Assembly (NCBI RefSeq): GCF_001677435.1
Contig: NZ_CP016268.1
Location: 1,663,001 to 1,727,000 of the forward strand
Direction: 5' to 3'
Source of the DNA: Woeseia oceani
Lineage (GTDB): Bacteria > Pseudomonadota > Gammaproteobacteria > Steroidobacterales > Woeseiaceae
DNA length: 64,000 nucleotides
Position 1 is the first letter of the stretch. Every line of letters starts with the position of its first letter. This document shows positions 1,586 to 30,104 of this stretch, one piece after another. The translations under genes and the position numbers were made by a program. Under the pieces are notes generated by a model, which had not been told where the DNA came from, made no database searches, and saw only the letters and a list, made by a program, of their open reading frames with translations.

Positions 1586-2929
1586 ATGAACAACAGCAAG
1601 ACCAGTCAAGCCAGAGTACTCGTCATGGACGAGAACATTGATCGGGCGGCAGAGCTCAGCCACCGCCTGCGTTTCCTGAACTACGAACCCATGGTCGCGG
1701 CAGACCCGCAAGCACTGCAGGACATCGACCTCGACAGCGGCATTGCCGTCATGCTCGGCGACACCATCGTCGGTGGCGAGCTGGAGACTGCGGTCAATGA
1801 CTTGCTGAGTACCCGACCCAACATGCCGGTCTTGCTGGCATCTTCCACGCGCGACAGCGAGCTTGCGAAAAAACACGGCTGGCCGCTCGAATTACCGATT
1901 CGCCGCGCGCAGCTGCAACAACTGCTGAAGCGGGCTGAACGCTACGACGGTCGCGACCAGCGACAACGGCTTACCGGCAGTTCGCGCACCATTCGCAAGG
2001 TCCGCAAGATGATCGAACAGGTTGCGGACTTCGATACCAACGTGCTGGTTACCGGTGAATCCGGCACCGGCAAGGAGCTGGTCGCGCGAACGATTCACGA
2101 CCTTTCCGAACGTGCCGCACGCCCGTTCGTACCCATTAATTGCGGCGCCATACCCCCCGATTTGCTGGAAAGCGAACTGTTTGGCCACGAAAAAGGTGCG
2201 TTCACCGGTGCGGTCAGCACGCGGGTAGGGCGCTTCGAGCTGGCCGAAGGCGGCACGCTGTTTCTGGACGAAATAGGCGATATGAGCCTGCCCATGCAGG
2301 TCAAACTCCTGCGGGTATTGCAGGAGCGCACGTTTGAACGGGTCGGCAGCAATGCGACACAACATTGCAATGTGCGCATCATTGCCGCTACCCATCGCGA
2401 TTTGCCGGCCATGGTTGCCGATGGCACGTTTCGCGAAGACCTTTTTTACCGCCTCAATGTGTTCCCGATCGAAATGCCGCCCTTGTGCAAACGCGCGGCC
2501 GATCTGCCGGCTCTGCTGGACGAATTGCTGACGCAGCACGTGCCCGGGTCGGACAGCACCTTGCGCCTGACACCCGCGGCCATTGCGGCGCTCGCGCGCT
2601 ACCCCTGGCCGGGCAATATTCGTGAACTGAGTAATCTGGTTGAGCGTCTGGCGATCATGTTCCCTAAAGGCGAGATCGATCTTGCGGATCTTCCGCGGAA
2701 GTACCAGACGGCGGAAACGGCAGCGCCGGATGCCGGGCATTCGACGGCTTCGTCGTCTGTCGCCAGTGCGACGACCGCCAATCTGAAGCAATACCTGCAG
2801 GACGTTGAGCGCGATCTCATCGTGCAGGCGTTGGCGGCGACTGACGGTGTCGTTGCCAAAGCTGCGCGGCGACTGCAAATGCAGCGCACGACATTGCTGG
2901 AAAAGATCAACAAATACGGCATCGCCTGA
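1586..2929 (+). CDS. fleQ: Flagellar master regulator FleQ (sigma-54-dependent activator)
   Basis: 447 residues in three parts: an N-terminal FleQ receiver-like domain (about 10-120), an AAA+ sigma-54 interaction domain (about 128-365), and a C-terminal Fis-type helix-turn-helix (about 410-447, ending RTTLLEKINKYG). Visible motifs are Walker A GESGTGKE (157-164), the sigma-54 contact loop GAFTGA (204-209) and Walker [12 protein letters not shown] (222-232). FleQ remodels RpoN holoenzyme at class II flagellar promoters. It sits directly upstream of fleSR, as in Pseudomonas. In P. aeruginosa FleQ, an LFRSL arginine and an Arg-Asn pair after Walker A bind c-di-GMP. Here the first segment reads RQRLTG and the pair reads RT, so binding is uncertain. 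A second FleQ paralogue lies at 28653-30104. Confidence 0.92.
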   Translation: MNNSKTSQARVLVMDENIDRAAELSHRLRFLNYEPMVAADPQALQDIDLDSGIAVMLGDTIVGGELETAVNDLLSTRPNMPVLLASSTRDSELAKKHGWPLELPIRRAQLQQLLKRAERYDGRDQRQRLTGSSRTIRKVRKMIEQVADFDTNVLVTGESGTGKELVARTIHDLSERAARPFVPINCGAIPPDLLESELFGHEKGAFTGAVSTRVGRFELAEGGTLFLDEIGDMSLPMQVKLLRVLQERTFERVGSNATQHCNVRIIAATHRDLPAMVADGTFREDLFYRLNVFPIEMPPLCKRAADLPALLDELLTQHVPGSDSTLRLTPAAIAALARYPWPGNIRELSNLVERLAIMFPKGEIDLADLPRKYQTAETAAPDAGHSTASSSVASATTANLKQYLQDVERDLIVQALAATDGVVAKAARRLQMQRTTLLEKINKYGIA

Positions 2930-13302: not shown

Positions 13303-14295
13303 ATGACTGAACAGGTTCTGTCGGACGATGAAAAGAATGCGCTGCTGGAAGGCGTTTCTTCCGGTGCCATTGAAGTGCAGTCGGCAGACGGCCCGCAATA
13401 CAAGACCGTCAAGCCGTACGTAATTGGCCCACGTGCACGCATCGTCAGTAACAGTTTTCCGCGCCTCGAGAGCATGAATGAACAATTTGCTTCGCGGCTT
13501 GCCGAGAGCACCGCCGGTTTGCTGCAAGTTGAAGTCGATATCTCGGCTCGCGCCATTCGCCAGCAGGTTTTTGCGGATTACAGCGAACTCTGGCCGGCAC
13601 GCTGTGTCGTGGTTGGTTTCACTGCTGCACCGCTGCCCGGTGAAGCATTGATCGTGTTCGACTCCGAGCTCGTCAGTCCGCTGGTCGAAGCGTTCTTCGG
13701 CGGCAATAGTCCGGAGTCCGAGGCCAGCACCGATACCGCGCATTCGGCAGGCGCGCTCAGCATTCTGCAACTGCTGGTTCGCGAAATTTTTACAGCCATG
13801 CACGCGGTCTGGTTGCCGCTGCGCGACCTCAAAACCGAACGCGCTGAAACGCGTATCGGTCTTGATCTGGTCGAGTCCATCGCTCCCGCCGAGAGCATCA
13901 TCGCCAGCGAATTCGAAGTCACGATCGGTGAGGGCAATGAACAGCGCGCCTCATTCAGCGTGGTGTGGCCGGTGAACACAGTAGCGTCCTTGCGCCCGGC
14001 GCTGGAAGGCAAACGTCGGGAACGCGACCACGCCGAAGACCAACGCTGGGAGAAAGTACTGCGTCGCCGAATGATCGACGTCATCGTGGATCTCAGCTCC
14101 AACGTAGGCCACGCACGCATGACTCTCGGTGAACTGGTGAACCTGGCTCCTGGCGATGTAATCGGCATCGACACGCCACGGGTTGCGACAGTCCTTGCAC
14201 ACGGCGTGCCCTTGATAGAAGGGCGTTTTGGTGTACAGGCCGGACGCAATGCCGTTGAAGCGGTCGCGTGGCTGGAGTCACAGAACAGCAACTGA
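13303..14295 (+). CDS. fliM: Flagellar motor switch protein FliM
   Basis: 330 residues. The N-terminal leader (LSDDEKNALLEGVSSG) resembles the CheY-P-binding segment. The middle CheC-like domain (VEAFFGG, about residues 130-225) and the C-terminal SpoA domain (about 245-320) are present. FliM forms the C-ring wall and sets rotation direction on binding phospho-CheY; no cheY is in this window. It starts 12 bp after fliL. Confidence 0.96.
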   Translation: MTEQVLSDDEKNALLEGVSSGAIEVQSADGPQYKTVKPYVIGPRARIVSNSFPRLESMNEQFASRLAESTAGLLQVEVDISARAIRQQVFADYSELWPARCVVVGFTAAPLPGEALIVFDSELVSPLVEAFFGGNSPESEASTDTAHSAGALSILQLLVREIFTAMHAVWLPLRDLKTERAETRIGLDLVESIAPAESIIASEFEVTIGEGNEQRASFSVVWPVNTVASLRPALEGKRRERDHAEDQRWEKVLRRRMIDVIVDLSSNVGHARMTLGELVNLAPGDVIGIDTPRVATVLAHGVPLIEGRFGVQAGRNAVEAVAWLESQNSN

Positions 14296-21639: not shown

Positions 21640-22507
21640 TGTTTCTCAAGGCGAAGGAATCAAACAGGCACTTGCACGGCGGCCCGTCAAAGTCGTTGCG
21701 ATAACCAGTGGCAAAGGCGGCGTGGGCAAGACCAACGTCGCAACGAATCTCGCTGTTGCGCTGTCAAACCGGCGTCGCAAGGTCATGTTGCTGGATGCCG
21801 ATCTTGGCCTCGCGAACATAGACGTACTGCTGGGATTGCAGCCTCGCTTTAATCTGTCGCACGTGATCAGTGGCGAGGCCGATCTTGCCAGCACGATCAT
21901 TAACGGTCCGGCCGGTGTGCAAATCGTCCCGGCCGCATCCGGCAATTTTTCAATGACCGATGTGCCACCGGCTTCCCAGGCCGCGATAGTGCAGGCGTTC
22001 TCCGATCTCGGTGAACAGCCCGATGTGCTGATCGTGGACACTGCGGCCGGGATATCAGAGTCGGTCGCTCGTTTTGTACAAGCCGCACAGCAGGCCATCA
22101 TCGTTGTATGTGATGAGCCCTCATCGATTACTGATGCTTATGCGCTCATCAAGGTATTCAGTCGGCACTACGGCATTAGCCGTTTTCAGGTACTGACCAA
22201 CCAGACCCGTGACGCGCGTCATGGTCAGGATCTCTACACCAAGATCCGCAAAGTCGCGGATCGTTACCTGGACGTCGTCTTGCGGCATGTCGGCAATGTG
22301 CCACACGATCAGTACCTGCGCCGGGCGGTGCAGGAACAACGGGCTGTAGTGGATGCATACCCCGCCAGTATTGCCGGAGAAGCCTTTCAGCGCATTGCGC
22401 AAACGGTGGACGAATTGCCGACCGCCCGTGGCCCGCAGGGAGGTATCGAGTTCTTCTTCGAGCAATTGCTGCACGCCGAAACGGCCTGTGTGGGGAGCAT
22501 GGCATGA
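21632..22507 (+). CDS. flhG: Flagellar number regulator FlhG/FleN (MinD-type ATPase)
   Basis: 291 residues from ATG 21632, which overlaps the flhF stop (ATGCATAG) and has AAGGTGAG at good distance; a GTG 9 nt further upstream is too close to that site. Deviant Walker A SGKGGVGKTN, and DADLGLANIDVLLGL (switch/Walker A') are clear, as is the VDTAAGIS Walker B region. FlhG antagonises FlhF and FleQ to limit flagellar number. It is coupled to fliA by a 4-nt overlap. Confidence 0.95.
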   Translation: MHSVSQGEGIKQALARRPVKVVAITSGKGGVGKTNVATNLAVALSNRRRKVMLLDADLGLANIDVLLGLQPRFNLSHVISGEADLASTIINGPAGVQIVPAASGNFSMTDVPPASQAAIVQAFSDLGEQPDVLIVDTAAGISESVARFVQAAQQAIIVVCDEPSSITDAYALIKVFSRHYGISRFQVLTNQTRDARHGQDLYTKIRKVADRYLDVVLRHVGNVPHDQYLRRAVQEQRAVVDAYPASIAGEAFQRIAQTVDELPTARGPQGGIEFFFEQLLHAETACVGSMA

Positions 22508-23226
22508 TTGGCTACGCCAATTATTCGAGCAATCAGTACATCTCACAGGATGAACTGGTTACGTCGCATGTCGATCTTGTCAAACGTATTGCCCATCATT
22601 TGGTCGCACGGCTGCCGGCAAGCGTGGAAATCGATGATCTGCTGCAGGCCGGCATGATCGGATTGCTCGAAGCTTCACGGAACTTCGATGCCAGCAAAGG
22701 TGCCAGTTTCGACACGTATGCCGGTATTCGCATTCGCGGTTCGATGCTGGACGAGGTACGGCGACTGGACTGGACTCCGCGTTCGGTACACCAGAAGCAT
22801 CGACAGGTTTCTGCGGCGGTGCGTGAAATCCAGGCAGAAACCGGCCGACCGGCCGAGTCGCAGGAAATCGCAGCACGACTTGGCATCTCCATCGATGAAT
22901 ACCACGACATTCTTGCGGATTCCGCAGGCAGTCGATTGTTCAGTTTTGAAGAAGCGAATGAAGACTGGCAGGTCGGTCAGGAGCTGCCGGCTTCTGACGT
23001 GGCAACGCCGGACCAGGCCTTTGGCGACGACCAGTTTCGGGAGTTTCTGATCGAGGCGATAGGTGATTTGCCCGAACGTGAGCGCCTGGTGTTGTCGCTG
23101 TACTACGAACGCGAACTTAACCTGAAGGAAATCGGTGCGGTACTCGGCGTCAGCGAGTCTCGTGTTTGTCAGATTCACGGTCAAGCGCTCGTTCGCTTGC
23201 GTGCGATGACCAGCAAAGGAGCCTGA
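22504..23226 (+). CDS. fliA: Flagellar sigma factor FliA (sigma-28)
   Basis: 240 residues. Region 2 (DLVKRIAHHLVARLP..., GASFDTYAGIRIRGSMLDEVRRLDW), region 3 and region 4 (LKEIGAVLGVSESRVCQIHGQAL) are all present. FliA reads class III flagellar and motility promoters once FlgM is exported. Two strong candidate targets are in this window (27079-27105 and 28314-28340). ATG 22504 overlaps the flhG stop. Confidence 0.97.
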   Translation: MIGYANYSSNQYISQDELVTSHVDLVKRIAHHLVARLPASVEIDDLLQAGMIGLLEASRNFDASKGASFDTYAGIRIRGSMLDEVRRLDWTPRSVHQKHRQVSAAVREIQAETGRPAESQEIAARLGISIDEYHDILADSAGSRLFSFEEANEDWQVGQELPASDVATPDQAFGDDQFREFLIEAIGDLPERERLVLSLYYERELNLKEIGAVLGVSESRVCQIHGQALVRLRAMTSKGA

Positions 23227-23431: not shown

Positions 23432-23874
23432 TGTATATCGATGATGCTTTCTGGCAGTATTCATTGCTGCTTGCGAACGCCCTGTTGTTGGGTGCTGCAG
23501 CTTTGGTGATTGTGCGCTTGCGCAGGGAACTGCATACGATGCGTGAGTTCTGGACCAGCCCGGCGATGGCCGCGATGCAGCCGGAACCTTACGATGATCG
23601 CGATTTGCGACGTATGTTCGATCGAAGATTGACCATGCTGCAGAAATACGTTGAGCAACAGGTAGCGGCACGCCCGAATATGGTGGCGGAAAGTCCTGCG
23701 GCTGTCGCGCCGCGCAGTAACGAGCTACCGGTTGAGTATGCGACGCGAATGGCACGTGCCGGTGCAAGCGAAGACGACCTGGTTCGCGGCTGCGGTCTGA
23801 ACAAAGGTGAGGCGCAGCTATTAATGAGATTACATGCTGGACGTACGTCAGCAACCCAAGCAATTACACACTAA
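23431..23874 (+). CDS. DUF2802-type membrane-anchored protein
   Basis: 147 residues: an N-terminal membrane helix (about 10-28, LLLANALLLGAAALVIV), a basic/coiled region (30-80), a Pro/Ala linker and a C-terminal helical hairpin (about 105-140, MARAGASEDDLVRGCGLNKGEAQLLMRLH) that resembles a helix-turn-helix. This matches DUF2802 proteins found at the end of flagellar/chemotaxis operons of polar flagellates, by my recollection of that family. Function is unknown. The ATG overlaps the previous stop by one base. Confidence 0.7.
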   Translation: MYIDDAFWQYSLLLANALLLGAAALVIVRLRRELHTMREFWTSPAMAAMQPEPYDDRDLRRMFDRRLTMLQKYVEQQVAARPNMVAESPAAVAPRSNELPVEYATRMARAGASEDDLVRGCGLNKGEAQLLMRLHAGRTSATQAITH

Positions 23875-23887
23875 GGACCACGAGTCG

Positions 23888-24745
23888 ATGAGCAGTAAAG
23901 AGTACTTTCAACTGGTTTCGGATTTCGCCCGCGAATTAACCAAAGGTGATATCAGCCTGCCTTCCTTCCCGGAAGTTGTATTGCGAATTCGCAAGCTGTT
24001 GGAAAAAGACGATGTACTGATTGAACAGGTCAGCGGCGCGGTAAGTACCGACCCTGTATTGGTATCTCGACTGCTGGTTTTTGCCAACTCGTCGCACCAC
24101 AACCCTGCCGGTGTGCGCATCGAATCACTGGACGTCGCTATCAGCCGGCTGGGTTTTGAGCTCGTAAAGAACACAGCTGTGTCACTGGCTATCAAGCAGA
24201 TTGCACTGGCTGAACAGCACAAAGACATAGCGCCGCAAATGCGCGCGGTCTGGCAGCGAAGCATGCAGTTGGCGGCTATGTCGTCTGTGGTCGCGGCGCG
24301 CAAACGGGGCCTGGATAAGGAAACGGCGTTCCTGTGCGGCCTGTTGCATCAAGTGGGCAAGCTCTACATTCTGACCCGCAGCAAGGACTATCCAGCGTTG
24401 CTGGCGGACCCCGAACAGTTCGACGTGCTGGCCGACGACTGGCATCCCAAAGTCGGCAAGAGCATCGTCGAATCGTGGAATTTTCCGGACGAGGTTGTGC
24501 GCACGCTGGAACCCGATGAGCACCTGAGTGACTTCACCCATGAAGACGCTACACTGGTGGACGTTGTGTACGTGGCGGGACAGCTACTGAAATTCGAAGA
24601 TAACGACGACGACGGCGCCGCTGTTGAAGCGTTGTTGTCTGAACCAGCCGCCACCCGGATAGGCATCGCGCCGGAGAATCTTGCCGGGTTACGTACCGCG
24701 TACAATGAGAAGCTCAGCGCGGTCCGCGAAGCTCTGACGACCTGA
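23888..24745 (+). CDS. HDOD-domain signalling protein
   Basis: 285 residues and soluble. The HDOD core covers about 20-215: LPSFPEVVLRIRKLL, then AVSTDPVLVSRLLVFANS, a Ser-rich turn and GLLHQVGKLYIL. The family resembles HD phosphohydrolases but lacks the catalytic HD pair, and here GLLHQVGKL replaces the HD motif, as expected. Such proteins act as scaffolds in motility and c-di-GMP signalling. ATG 23888 is chosen because AAGGACC precedes it; an ATG at 23834 would overlap the upstream gene. The stop is 3 bp from the convergent pilZ stop. Confidence 0.82.
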   Translation: MSSKEYFQLVSDFARELTKGDISLPSFPEVVLRIRKLLEKDDVLIEQVSGAVSTDPVLVSRLLVFANSSHHNPAGVRIESLDVAISRLGFELVKNTAVSLAIKQIALAEQHKDIAPQMRAVWQRSMQLAAMSSVVAARKRGLDKETAFLCGLLHQVGKLYILTRSKDYPALLADPEQFDVLADDWHPKVGKSIVESWNFPDEVVRTLEPDEHLSDFTHEDATLVDVVYVAGQLLKFEDNDDDGAAVEALLSEPAATRIGIAPENLAGLRTAYNEKLSAVREALTT

Positions 24746-24748
24746 GTT

Positions 24749-25363
24749 TCAGTCGTTGTAGCTGTCGAGTTCCAGCCGGCGCATCCGGAGTGTTTCGGAC
24801 TCCCGGCTGAACAGGTGCTGGATCAGTATTTCCTTCTGGGCGGCAGTCATGCCGACGAACTCAACGGCAATGCCGTGCGGCCGGCTGGCATCGCTTTCAG
24901 CCGGCGGTTCGGTGATGCGCACGACCCGGCAGAAGGTTTCTATGTAACGACTGTCTGATTCCAGTAACAGCCGTAATACCAGTTTGGTTTCCGGAGCATA
25001 GGCCTCCGCGGCACCAAATACCATGCCGTCTGCACTGAGTTCGCAAACCTGGGGCATCTGCCGTGCCAACGACGCTTTGCATTCGCGAAACGCGGGCAGT
25101 TGTTCGACGACGATATTCAATTTTTCGTTGAGCAAGGTCAGGATAGCTGCGACTTTTTCGGATTGTGCCTTCATCAGGAACAGCTTTTCGTCGAGGCGTG
25201 CATCCAGATCGATCATGCGTGAGCGCACGCCTTCACTGTTGCCCTCCCGGATTCGCCTTCGTTCGAGCCCGCCATTGAATTCGTCTTCGCTGATCACTTC
25301 GTAGCGCAGGTAGACGGACTCGACGATGCGAAAGGACCGACGATGCTTGCTGCCGTTACTCAT
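24749..25363 (-). CDS. PilZ-domain protein with long helical insertion, co-transcribed with motAB
   Basis: 204 residues. The c-di-GMP-binding RxxxR is visible as R8-x-x-x-R12 (RRSFR). The second PilZ motif appears as E108-x-S-x-x-G113 (ELSADG), with Glu in place of the usual Asp/Asn. Between them is an unusually long charged helical insert (about 30-100, with KLFLMKAQSEKVAAILTLLNEKL). Tetrameric PilZ proteins of xanthomonads have such heptad insertions. The start overlaps motB by 8 nt (ATGAGTAA), so it is the third gene of motA-motB-pilZ. The likely role is a c-di-GMP-dependent brake or stator regulator; this is inference from position. Confidence 0.8.
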   Translation of the reverse strand: MSNGSKHRRSFRIVESVYLRYEVISEDEFNGGLERRRIREGNSEGVRSRMIDLDARLDEKLFLMKAQSEKVAAILTLLNEKLNIVVEQLPAFRECKASLARQMPQVCELSADGMVFGAAEAYAPETKLVLRLLLESDSRYIETFCRVVRITEPPAESDASRPHGIAVEFVGMTAAQKEILIQHLFSRESETLRMRRLELDSYND

Positions 25364-26228
25364 CGTTTGCTACCCCTATAGTTAGTTTGCTCACGACAGG
25401 AGCATCGACGCTTTGTTCGGTCACGTCATCAATATCCCCACCGCGAATAATACTGATATCGACCCGGCGGTTCTTCGCGCGATTCTCGGCGGAGTCGTTG
25501 TCAGCCCGCGGCCGGGTATCGGCATGCCCGGTAACCATGAAGCGTCCTTCATCAGCTGAAGCGGTCTTTAGCAGTTCATGCGTCACGGACACAGCCCGCG
25601 ACGTCGACAGATCCCAGTTCGAACGAAAACGCTCATTGTAAATGGGGATGTTGTCAGTGTGGCCGGACACCGTGATTTCGCCGCTGTTGGTGTCAATCAT
25701 GCTGCCGATCTTGAGCAGCACCGGTGCGAATGCGGGACGGACGTCGGCCTGGCCCGATTCAAACGAGGCTTTTTCAAGAATGCGAATGATGACCTTCATG
25801 CCCTCAGTTTCGACGGCGACACTGCCGTTGGCAATTTCTTCCTGTAATGCAAGTCGCAGGCGTTTGGCATGCTTCTGAGTTTCTTCAACCTCTTTGGACT
25901 TTCGATCCAGCAGGTCAAGCGTGTTTTGATTGGAATCGATCGTAAACTGCTTAACCTGTTTAAGTGCAGTTGGGTCCGGTCGTCCGGGACTGAATTCCCG
26001 GGTAACCACGCTGGTCCCCTTGGGAATGCTCTTGACCTCTATTTCAGCCTGCACGCCGAATGCATTCTTCATTGAGCCGGACAGCTGTTTGAATTTCAGC
26101 ACGTCCATTTCGGAGAATGCCAGCAGCAGGACGAAGAAACACATCAACAGCGTCATCAGGTCTGCGAAGGTCATTACCCATGCAGGTACTCCGCCGCCAC
26201 CGTCCGATTTCTCTTGTGCCTGATCCAC
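25356..26228 (-). CDS. motB: Flagellar stator protein MotB (peptidoglycan-binding)
   Basis: 290 residues: one N-terminal membrane helix with the ion-binding Asp23 (FADLMTLLMCFFVLLLAFSEMD), a plug/linker, and a C-terminal OmpA-like domain (about 140-260, SGHTDNIPI, NWDLSTSRA, GHADTRPRADNDSAENRAKNRRVDI). The start is GTG 26228 with AAGGG 8 nt upstream, 12 bp after motA. It anchors the stator to peptidoglycan. The hydrophobic, Cys-containing helix and the PomA-like partner leave open H+ versus Na+ coupling. Confidence 0.94.
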   Translation of the reverse strand: MDQAQEKSDGGGGVPAWVMTFADLMTLLMCFFVLLLAFSEMDVLKFKQLSGSMKNAFGVQAEIEVKSIPKGTSVVTREFSPGRPDPTALKQVKQFTIDSNQNTLDLLDRKSKEVEETQKHAKRLRLALQEEIANGSVAVETEGMKVIIRILEKASFESGQADVRPAFAPVLLKIGSMIDTNSGEITVSGHTDNIPIYNERFRSNWDLSTSRAVSVTHELLKTASADEGRFMVTGHADTRPRADNDSAENRAKNRRVDISIIRGGDIDDVTEQSVDAPVVSKLTIGVANDE

Positions 26229-26240
26229 CGCGGCGAGCCC

Positions 26241-27002
26241 TTAATCGACGTCGTCGACCGGCCGCTTGGAACGCGGCAGGTAGGTTTGCAGCATGTTCTC
26301 AATGACCCTTGGATTCTGGCCGCCCTGGATCCCGAGCAGCGCGTCAATGATCAGTGATTTGCGAGTGTTTTCTTCGCGACTGCGTACGGACAGTTTGTCA
26401 GCGATGGGCAAGGCGAACATGTTGGCAAGAATGGCGCCGTAAAGCGTGGTGAGCAGCGCGACTGCCATAGCCGGACCGATTTGCTTGGGATCGTCCATAT
26501 TGGCCAGCATTTGCACCAGGCCGATCAGCGTTCCGATCATGCCCATGGCGGGGCCGACATCACCGATGGCCTTGAAAATATCCTGACCGTCGCTGTGCCT
26601 GGCAAGCGTCATATTGAGGTCTTTGGTCAGCATTGAGCGCACGATTTCGGCAGGATGGCCGTCGATCAGCAATCCCAGGCCGGATTTCATGAATTCATCA
26701 GGGACTTCCGCGTCCTCAAGCGCCAGCAGACCACCCTGGCGAGCGGTCTTGGCGAGCTCGACAGCGGTTGCGATCAGTTCTTCAGGTTCGGTTGGCTTGT
26801 GCAGAAACGCTTTTACAGCAATGGATGCCGCACCAAGGAACTTGCCCAGGCTGAACTTCATCATGGTAACAAGTACGGTACCGCCCAGTACCACCAGCAA
26901 GGATGGCATGTTGACGAAGGTACCGGCCGAGCCGCCGAGCATGATTGACGCCAGCACGATGCCGAAAGCGCCTATCAATCCGATAAGTGTTGCAAGATCC
27001 AA
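26241..27002 (-). CDS. motA: Flagellar stator protein MotA/PomA
   Basis: 253 residues with four membrane helices and the MotA/PomA signatures DVGPAMGMIGTLIGLVQML and ALLTTLYGAILANMFALPIADKL. I choose the TTG start at 27002: it gives MDLATLIGLIGAFG, the family N-terminus, and has GGAGG exactly 8 nt upstream. A TTG 30 nt further upstream adds ten atypical residues and places that GGAGG inside the gene. Driven by a consensus sigma-28 promoter at 27079-27105. Forms the stator with MotB. Confidence 0.93.
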   Translation of the reverse strand: MDLATLIGLIGAFGIVLASIMLGGSAGTFVNMPSLLVVLGGTVLVTMMKFSLGKFLGAASIAVKAFLHKPTEPEELIATAVELAKTARQGGLLALEDAEVPDEFMKSGLGLLIDGHPAEIVRSMLTKDLNMTLARHSDGQDIFKAIGDVGPAMGMIGTLIGLVQMLANMDDPKQIGPAMAVALLTTLYGAILANMFALPIADKLSVRSREENTRKSLIIDALLGIQGGQNPRVIENMLQTYLPRSKRPVDDVD

Positions 27003-27078: not shown

Positions 27079-27105
27079 TTATCGGCAGGAAGCGCGCCGC
27101 CTTTA
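27079..27105 (-). promoter_or_regulatory. Sigma-28 (FliA) promoter of motA-motB-pilZ
   Basis: Read on the - strand: TAAA, 15 bp, GCCGATAA, identical to the E. coli-type FliA core. It lies 76 bp upstream of the chosen motA start and just after the diguanylate cyclase stop, so it gives motAB its own class III start point. Confidence 0.9.
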
Positions 27106-27114
27106 GCTGCCTAC

Positions 27115-28260
27115 TTATGCCGATTTGGCGGCGATGGTTTCGACTTCAGCTTCTGCGTACTTGTAGCAATTCCTGCCAGCGTCCTTGGCTGCGTACAGGG
27201 CACTGTCAACGCGCTTGATGATTGATTCCACGGTGTCACCCGGGATCACTTCCGTGTAGCCCGATGAACAGCCGAGGCGTACGCCGTCGGGGGCGTAGGG
27301 GACAGTGATCTCGCCGACGTATTCGTAGAAACGACTCAGTAGCGTTGCTGAGTTGGCGGCCGTTGTATCCGCGAGAATAACGGCAAATTCGTCCCCCCCG
27401 TAGCGCGCGACGAAATCAGTCTTGCGAATAAACGAACGTGCCAATGCGTCGCCGACCGAACGCAATACTTCGTCGCCGGCGGCATGCCCGTAGGTGTCGT
27501 TGACTGTCTTGAAATGATCAATGTCGAGCAAAATGACCGTGACCGGCTGGTTTAGAATGAAATTGATGTTCAGGCAGTGGATGATCGCCTGATCGAAGGC
27601 GCCGCGATTAAACGCGCCGGTCAGCGAGTCACGTGACATTTTTTCGCGAACCGACAACAGATCCTGGCGCAGGCTGCTCATGCGCTGGTTCATTTCGCTG
27701 ATTCGTTTTTCGTAATCCTGCTTTTGTTGCGCAAGGCTTTCGGCAATATTGCGGATGGTCTGATTCAACGTCGCTTTGATCTCCGGCAGCAAGCCGGTCG
27801 CAACGGCTGCCTCGACTGACTTCAGGTTGCGATTAATGCAAAACTCGGTTTCCCGGTCACGTTGAGCGATTTCCCGCAGTCCGCCAACGAGATCCTCCAC
27901 CACGCCACGGTAATCGGCCATGCGAGAGTTAACGAAGTCGCGTTCGCTTTGCCGTCGATCGATGTAGAAACGGCGAACATGACCCCAGCGGCGTTCTCCA
28001 TCATTCGAACCGGCGATGTCGAGGGACGGTACCGGCGCGCCATTTTCGACGTGGCAGGCCAGTTCGGTGCATTGCGTAGGGAACAGCTCTTCCGGAGCTC
28101 CGTCGTCGATGTCGAAGCTGATCTCACCCATGGTACGAACGATAGTGCCGAGCGTGTCGATAGCACCGTCCGCGGTATTCGTGGCAAAACTGGCAGTGGC
28201 GGAGGGCAGGTCTTCGCCGTTGCCCTTTCGACCACCCATCAATTTGTTTACAAAGCCCAT
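27115..28260 (-). CDS. Diguanylate cyclase (GGDEF) with intact I-site
   Basis: 381 residues from ATG 28260 (AGGA 10 nt upstream); an upstream in-frame extension crosses the promoter and is not used. No membrane segment is present. An N-terminal helical region of unknown fold (about 1-205) ends in a coiled coil (175-207), followed by the GGDEF domain (about 208-370): SRDSLTGAFNRGAFD, DIDHFKTVNDTYGH, active site GGDEF 288-292. The inhibitory site RKTD (279-282) is five residues before it. The enzyme should make c-di-GMP and be product-inhibited. It sits behind a sigma-28 promoter between motAB-pilZ and a fleQ paralogue. Confidence 0.92.
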   Translation of the reverse strand: MGFVNKLMGGRKGNGEDLPSATASFATNTADGAIDTLGTIVRTMGEISFDIDDGAPEELFPTQCTELACHVENGAPVPSLDIAGSNDGERRWGHVRRFYIDRRQSERDFVNSRMADYRGVVEDLVGGLREIAQRDRETEFCINRNLKSVEAAVATGLLPEIKATLNQTIRNIAESLAQQKQDYEKRISEMNQRMSSLRQDLLSVREKMSRDSLTGAFNRGAFDQAIIHCLNINFILNQPVTVILLDIDHFKTVNDTYGHAAGDEVLRSVGDALARSFIRKTDFVARYGGDEFAVILADTTAANSATLLSRFYEYVGEITVPYAPDGVRLGCSSGYTEVIPGDTVESIIKRVDSALYAAKDAGRNCYKYAEAEVETIAAKSA

Positions 28261-28313
28261 AGGAATGATCCTGCGTATTGTGGAGGCCGCATCAATTGCA
28301 GCCGTCAGGCAGG

Positions 28314-28340
28314 ATATCGGGAATGTGGGCCGGAACTTTA
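28314..28340 (-). promoter_or_regulatory. Sigma-28 (FliA) promoter of the diguanylate cyclase gene
   Basis: Read on the - strand: TAAAGTTC, 11 bp, CCCGATAT. This matches the long FliA consensus TAAAGTTT-N11-GCCGATAA at 13 of 16 positions, with the TAAA and CGAT cores intact. It lies 53 bp upstream of the chosen ATG. Confidence 0.8.
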
Positions 28341-28652: not shown

Positions 28653-30104
28653 ATGTCCGGCTCAACTCAAGCAATTGCGGCACCGCAAGCGGCAGCAACA
28701 GACCCGTCTGTCAGCGGCGCCTCACTGAGCAGGCATCAGCCCCGGCATTTGATTGTTGTCATACACGAAGCGGCGGACCAGTCGCGGCAAATCAAAGAAC
28801 TCATCGAATTCATGGATGCTCCGCAAGTGCTGACGGCGACAGCCGACAACTGGCGGGCGCAGATTGGCGATAGCCGCCTTGCAGCGGTGTTTGTGAGTGC
28901 CGGTTTGCCGAAGTCCGTTCAAAGCCGGATTTTCGATGGCGTTGCGGCGATCGATTGCAATGTGCCGTTGGTCGTAACGGGCGACGGCGGTTCTTTGTCG
29001 GATAAAGCAGCGCCGTGGGCACGCATCCTCAATCTCCCCAACCCGATGCAGATTGACGAACTCAGCGCCGTGCTCGAAGAAATCTGGGCGGTCAATGTGG
29101 TGCGCCGCAGCGACACGATGGCGCCAGGCACGGAGCTCATCGGCGAAAGCAACGACATGCGCATGATTCGGGCGCTCATTGAGCGGGTTGCACCGTCACA
29201 GGCAACGGTCCTGATCACGGGCGAGTCCGGCACCGGTAAAGAACTGATCGCCCGGCAAATTCATGAGCAGTCGGGGCGCACTGGCGAGTTCGTTGCAATC
29301 AATTGCGGCGCCATTCCCGAGCACCTGCTGGAAAGCGAGTTGTTCGGCCACGAACGTGGTGCCTTCACCGGTGCCCAGGTCGCGCGGGCAGGTCGTTTCG
29401 AACTGGCTGAGGGCGGCACGCTGTTTCTCGACGAGATTGGCGACATGCCGACCGCGATGCAGGTCAAGTTATTGCGCGTGTTGCAGGAACGGGTCATTGA
29501 GCGGATTGGTGGCACCAAGAGTATCCCGGTGGATATTCGGGTGATCGCTGCGACTCATAGAAACCTGCAGCAACGCATTGATGAGGGCACATTTCGCGAA
29601 GATCTTTTCTACCGCCTGAGCGTCTTTCCGATCGAGGCCTCGCCGTTGCGCGAGCGCCCGGACGATGTGCCGGCGCTGGCCAACATGCTGATCGACAAAG
29701 TCGCGGAACGCTACGGTGTGCGCATTTCCCTTAGCGATGCCGCTCTGGCGGCATTGTGTGACTACGAATGGCCGGGCAATGTCCGGGAACTGGCCAACGT
29801 CATTGAACGACTCGCGGTCCTGCGACCGCACGGCGAAGTGCAGCTTGATGAGTTGCCGGGCGCGATTCGTGGCGACGGCGGAGACAGGGGCGAAGATGAC
29901 GCTGATGCCGGCGTTGCGGAGTCGACCCTGCAACTGCCGGACGATGGTCTTGATCTCAAACAGCATCTGGCGACCATCGAGCGGGATATGATCGCTGCCG
30001 CTCTGCGCGAAGCCGATGGCGTTGTGCAAAAAGCGGCGAAGAGTCTGGGGCTCGGCCGGACTACGCTCGTCGAGAAGATTCGTCGCCACGATTTGCGCGA
30101 CTAG
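28653..30104 (+). CDS. Second FleQ-type sigma-54-dependent activator
   Basis: 483 residues from ATG 28653, chosen because AAGGAA lies 9 nt upstream; an in-frame ATG at 28593 and the frame opening at 28590 lack an RBS. An unusual N-terminal region (about 30-145, FleQ-like receiver fold, with no obvious phospho-acceptor Asp) precedes the AAA+ domain with Walker A GESGTGKE (190-197), GAFTGA (236-241) and Walker [12 protein letters not shown] (254-264). It ends in a Fis-type HTH ([12 protein letters not shown]). It shares more with FleQ than with NtrC. It may be a paralogue with its own regulon, e.g. biofilm or c-di-GMP output, because it is divergent from the cyclase. Confidence 0.88.

Follow-up and report, generated by a model that had tools for sequence, protein, structure and literature searches.

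In Escherichia coli, the class III c-di-GMP genes pdeH (yhjH) and ycgR depend on FliA, and an enzyme and a PilZ effector are thereby made together with the motor. This textbook class III enzyme, PdeH, clears c-di-GMP and thereby lets the completed motor run. FliA-dependent c-di-GMP enzymes are known in kind from Legionella, E. coli and Pseudomonas: FliA-affected enzymes have been described in the latter two (PMC4866697, which covers yhjH; PMC5300878), and the available excerpt of a Legionella study places the gene of a GGDEF protein, lpp0952, in the FliA regulon, describing a GGDEF-EAL-PAS protein and mentioning no stator linkage (PMC5655016). At the motor itself, the diguanylate cyclase DgcB of Caulobacter crescentus physically associates with the MotAB stator (PMC7885107), and in Pseudomonas a stator, a cyclase and a PilZ protein (MotCD, SadC and FlgZ) form one functional circuit (PMC9303241). 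Two PilZ proteins are also relevant here. According to the accessible part of its description, MotL of Shewanella putrefaciens is a functioning stand-alone PilZ protein whose gene lies just after motB and which acts on its own motor; no linked cyclase is mentioned there (PMC8203827). The tetrameric PilZ protein XCC6012 of Xanthomonas gave no reliable binding of c-di-GMP, and its knock-out is reported to reduce motility (PMC3131395).

The locus described here combines a cyclase gene, the stator genes and a PilZ gene in Woeseia oceani. It lies in a window of 64,000 nt, the whole stretch of DNA that was analysed, with the following features:

1586..2929, (+) strand: canonical FleQ (Pfam FleQ domain, 1.5e-12)
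22504..23226, (+) strand: fliA, gene of the sigma factor that would act on the two promoters (NCBIfam FliA, 5.5e-90)
24749..25363, (-) strand: stand-alone PilZ protein, XCC6012-like (Pfam PilZ, 3.7e-6)
25356..26228, (-) strand: motB, stator, with MotB plug and OmpA domains (domain matches)
26241..27002, (-) strand: motA of the PomA type (NCBIfam PomA, 387 bits, cut-off 341)
27079..27105, (-) strand: predicted sigma-28 (FliA) promoter of motA-motB-pilZ, TAAA-N15-GCCGATAA (full site TAAAGGCGGCGCGCTTCCTGCCGATAA)
27115..28260, (-) strand: predicted diguanylate cyclase (DGC), 381 aa, soluble (Pfam GGDEF, 5.9e-39)
28314..28340, (-) strand: predicted sigma-28 (FliA) promoter of the DGC gene, TAAAGTTC-N11-CCCGATAT (full site TAAAGTTCCGGCCCACATTCCCGATAT)
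28653..30104, (+) strand: sigma-54 activator, a FleQ paralogue, in divergent orientation to the DGC gene (FleQ-domain match below the Pfam cut-off)

The start of the DGC was placed at ATG 28260 rather than at the longer ORF start, 28404, which leaves the promoter upstream of the coding region; the predicted transcript start lies at about 28306, giving a leader of about 46 nt. For motA, the most likely start is TTG 27002, which follows GGAGG, although the listed ORF begins at TTG 27032; the chosen start fits the ORF of a relative beginning MDLATLIGLIG. Both sigma-28 sites are present exactly as an earlier note on this DNA had described them. A search for the pattern TAAA-N15-SCCGATAW, scored out of 12, returned just these two sites in the window when up to one mismatch was allowed, with 0.41 expected. 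In the 4.06 Mb genome, five exact matches occur, four of which fall within the flagellar region (preceding flgM at 1648885, flgK at 1657078, and the DGC and motA genes), and the fifth, at 569512, is located inside a coding ORF. The flagellin gene has an 11/12 site at 1660380. Since exact matches are few and belong mostly to late flagellar genes, the pattern likely represents a specific late-flagellar promoter in W. oceani and, judged by its site, the DGC gene belongs to this promoter set. No sigma-70 promoter was found for the DGC gene, and sigma-54 control was rejected, the best TGGCAC-N5-TTGCW matches scoring at about shuffle level. No terminator was found on the (-) strand in the stretch that separates the DGC gene from motA, and transcription from the DGC promoter is therefore likely to run on into motA-motB-pilZ.

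Conservation of the promoters was assessed in 29 loci with readable DNA upstream of the DGC gene, the window's own included, with the site sought within 150 nt. A site of at least 10/12 is found in all 29, a score reached by 2.3% of dinucleotide shuffles of these regions (0.19% reach 11 and 0.017% reach 12) and, on the opposite strand, by one of the same 29 regions. The upstream regions are otherwise saturated (pairwise identity 40% on average, 67% at most), and the position, spacer and flanks of the site have drifted between orthologues, TxAAG at -35 and CGAT at -10 being retained around a free spacer. Its presence in every readable orthologue despite flanking regions which are about 40% identical argues that the site is under selection. 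In seven of the 29 orthologues, the site ends 3-8 nt upstream of the assumed DGC start codon, which would require a later start or a leaderless message. The orthologous motA regions carry a site of at least 11/12 in 27 of 28 cases. This comparative evidence strongly supports the proposal that the DGC gene and motA-motB-pilZ share FliA control, and transcription of both promoters by FliA is a well supported prediction.

Of 20 larger regions compared across Woeseiaceae, nearly all keep the order flhA-flhF-fleN-fliA-DUF2802-(HDOD)<>pilZ-motB-motA-dgc<>fleQ-like; two divergent members depart from it outside the dgc-motA-motB-pilZ core. The HDOD-domain gene (23834-24745 in the window) lies between fliA and pilZ in most relatives and was not found in some (for example L067, L070, L074). 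Searching with the N-terminal part identified the DGC in 33 of 101 Woeseiaceae genomes, comprising 32 of the 36 with FliA above the curated cut-off and one of the 65 without such a FliA, where it is a fragment on a contig edge. Among the 34 genomes with fliA in a flagellar locus, 32 have the DGC, and in the two exceptions the contig breaks off, just upstream of motA in one and inside the HDOD gene, ahead of the locus, in the other. The two other FliA-bearing genomes without the DGC (G026 and G057) have no FlhA; here an orphan FliA is followed by a different GAF-GGDEF gene (L195:7712-9644 in G026, L197:5632-7564 in G057), and signalling genes may be its targets in these genomes, which have no flagellum.

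Sigma-28-like sites were also observed at two histidine kinase genes of the W. oceani genome. One, encoding a CHASE4 hybrid kinase (L034; genome position 462497-465688), has the site about 110 nt upstream, and its counterpart in the flagellum-less G026 (L195:799-4393; proteins 41% identical) likewise has a sigma-28-like site at about that distance. The other, encoding an MHYT-PAS kinase (L032; genome position 993392), has a site with one mismatch just upstream.

Outside the family, the N-terminal region of the DGC gave one weak match in the rest of the order. The best N-terminal match, in Nitrospirales (L096; 32%), was rejected, having neither nearby stator genes nor a sigma-28 site, and a profile search of genome contigs with the DGC alignment was discarded because the common GGDEF motif drew mostly unrelated cyclases. 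The window's PilZ protein, on the other hand, has homologues in 72 of the 369 genomes that were drawn from the whole of Gammaproteobacteria, and motA-motB directly precedes pilZ in 19 of 20 loci outside Woeseiaceae, that is, wherever the contig reaches. The succession of motA-motB and an XCC6012-like PilZ gene (L212-L231) thus appears to be a widespread gammaproteobacterial stator operon. In these loci the sigma-28 site before motA is variable, and the search found no GGDEF gene upstream of motA in any of the 20. Judged by gene order, motA-motB-pilZ is an old stator operon of many gammaproteobacterial families to which Woeseiaceae have added the DGC and its promoter. The module of DGC and motAB-pilZ proposed in the earlier note is strongly supported as regards the FliA link; just the DGC, and not the class-wide operon itself, is specific to the family.

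The DGC combines an N-terminal helical and coiled-coil region with a C-terminal GGDEF domain, and no transmembrane helix is expected, as it contains no strongly hydrophobic stretch of 19 residues. Its I-site, RKTD, lies five residues before GGDEF. All 21 aligned orthologues keep GG[D/E]EF (GGEEF in L084) and the I-site RxxD, as RKxD or RRxD, and residues D246, D248, N254 and D255 are invariant in a 13-sequence alignment; the catalytic and inhibitory residues are thus unchanged in orthologues that are only about 50% identical. On these motifs, which had been noted before, the enzyme looks intact and is predicted to be an active cyclase. The structure model consists of N-terminal helices, two long helices and the GGDEF domain, in an arrangement which is uncertain (pTM 0.47). 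Its best Foldseek match is Caulobacter DgcB (6ttr), borne by the GGDEF domain and the coil. Like DgcB, the protein is a predicted soluble coiled-coil GGDEF enzyme with the coiled coil at its N-terminus; unlike dgcB, its gene adjoins motAB and is predicted to be under FliA control, and it has an extra conserved helical region. No homologue is known for this region, which spans about residues 30-155. Two of its residues, C64 and H70, are invariant and possibly form a metal or redox site. SadC differs in being a membrane protein, while the Woeseia DGC is predicted to be soluble and is encoded with the stator. The conserved N-terminal helical and coiled-coil region suggests regulated dimerisation rather than constitutive activity.

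In the PilZ protein, beta-1 starts at residue 12 and PilZ is the sole domain; an identity as YcgR/FlgZ was rejected, the N-terminal YcgR domain being missing. Modelled as a monomer, the protein has helices inserted after beta-1, and its best fold match is XCC6012 (3ph1/3rqa; Foldseek, E 5.7e-6), which was reached only by the fold search, a PDB sequence search with this PilZ, profile included, returning nothing relevant. Both the Woeseia protein and XCC6012/XC2249 of Xanthomonas thus have a PilZ fold with helices inserted after beta-1; XCC6012, however, has no complete RxxxR and is encoded between fliCDS and rpoN/fleQ, whereas the Woeseia protein keeps RxxxR and its gene follows motB. MotL differs from it, according to the available part of its description, in having 144 aa, no helical insertion and fully conserved binding motifs (PMC8203827). 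The first motif, RxxxR, is present in all 21 orthologues as RRSFR (RRAFR in L084). The second motif reads ELSADG in the window, compared with the canonical [DN]xSxxG, and in relatives DVSADG (two cases) or mostly DVGADG or EVGADG. Homologues outside Woeseiaceae mostly have an R[R/x]xFR-type first motif and often the canonical second one. The role as c-di-GMP receptor assigned to this protein earlier is therefore plausible given the invariant RxxxR, and not secure given the degenerate second motif and the precedent of XCC6012; binding of c-di-GMP stays a prediction.

We favour, as a reasonably probable explanation by analogy with DgcB, a FliA-timed, stator-associated cyclase which acts via PilZ. 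Here, dgc-motA-motB-pilZ would form a single late (class III) unit under the control of FliA, which would use two sigma-28 promoters: once hook export removes FlgM, FliA would transcribe cyclase, stator and PilZ together. The soluble DGC would dimerise via its coiled coil, be product-limited by the I-site and most likely supply c-di-GMP locally, at the stator or close to it; PilZ would read this signal and adjust the stator, probably slowing or disengaging it. The association with the stator, and likewise the way in which swimming would be affected, is suggested by the neighbouring genes and by the precedents DgcB, SadC-MotCD-FlgZ and MotL. The W. oceani genome encodes 26 GGDEF domains, 25 besides that of the DGC, and 15 EAL domains, for which reason local production tied to the stator is a better fit than a global rise.

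Such a rise is the core of another explanation, in line with the earlier note, which we regard as unlikely and in which the cyclase needs no motor contact and is always active. The finished flagellum would then raise cellular c-di-GMP, which would act on PilZ and on the flagellar master regulator and bring construction to a halt, while the I-site would set an upper limit to the level. The FliA timing and the conserved I-site are consistent with this, and the exact site at flgM indicates that the checkpoint gene exists. The conserved N-terminal region, however, suggests regulated activity, whereas the claim that finishing the motor raises c-di-GMP assumes a constitutive enzyme; the many other GGDEF and EAL domains would buffer the pool, so that a global rise from the DGC is not implied. 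No link to FleQ was found either: the adjacent activator at 28653-30104 is a paralogue, the canonical FleQ being encoded at 1586-2929 and followed by a kinase that resembles FleS (3215) and a regulator that resembles FleR (4245), and the suggested feedback on FleQ is accordingly unsupported. As for the opposing activity, none of the exact sigma-28 matches in the genome is closely followed by an EAL domain, which rules out a late flagellar EAL gene among these matches.

The genome contains no flagellar chemotaxis system. Its one MCP and three CheW-domain matches all fall in one cluster with the order pilG-pilH-pilI-pilJ-chpA-chpC; this pil-chp-like cluster (L200; genome position 745393-754957) encodes a ChpA-like protein of 1901 aa. 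A scan of 25 genomes that carry the DGC counted a single MCP in 17 of them and as many as seven in others, and the DGC is therefore not a simple substitute for chemotaxis. The usual CheY-binding peptide of FliM is LSQDEIDALL. In the window, FliM (13303-14295) begins with LSDDEKNALLEGV, an N-terminus that looks altered and would fit absent chemotaxis.

Still less likely than a global rise is an output in surface attachment, where a motor that stalls would trigger adhesion (type IV pili, exopolysaccharide) by way of a DGC produced along with it, PilZ serving the stator independently. DgcB and SadC provide precedents (PMC7885107; PMC9303241), and the pil-chp cluster and the single chemoreceptor in most Woeseiaceae members scanned would agree with it; against this, the DGC locus showed no linked adhesion gene, and pilZ lies inside the unit with dgc, motA and motB. 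That the DGC promoter merely boosts the stator operon, the enzyme being incidental or catalytically dead, is compatible with the missing terminator upstream of motA but highly improbable, given the invariant catalytic and inhibitory residues and the strong promoter which motA itself retains.

No unit that joins a dedicated late cyclase to a stator and a PilZ protein came up in the literature searched, which lay outside most subscription journals, and searches on flagellar or SigD-dependent cyclases returned nothing or background only. If the stator-associated, FliA-timed cyclase is the correct reading, the logic of PdeH would be reversed: the E. coli enzyme breaks c-di-GMP down, whereas the conserved late gene of Woeseia would make the signal instead of removing it. 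As just four genes of a single unit encode the cyclase, the stator and PilZ, stator-gated c-di-GMP synthesis becomes directly testable in a small system, and the class-wide order motA-motB-pilZ suggests that many gammaproteobacterial stators carry their own c-di-GMP reader. More speculatively, and in our view doubtfully, such a cyclase may replace chemotaxis as the main control of the motor in Woeseiaceae, with motor load or state gating the enzyme and its product acting via PilZ on the same stator. With the late-flagellar promoter conserved before the cyclase gene, cells of this family probably produce the motor and a signal source linked to it at the same time.
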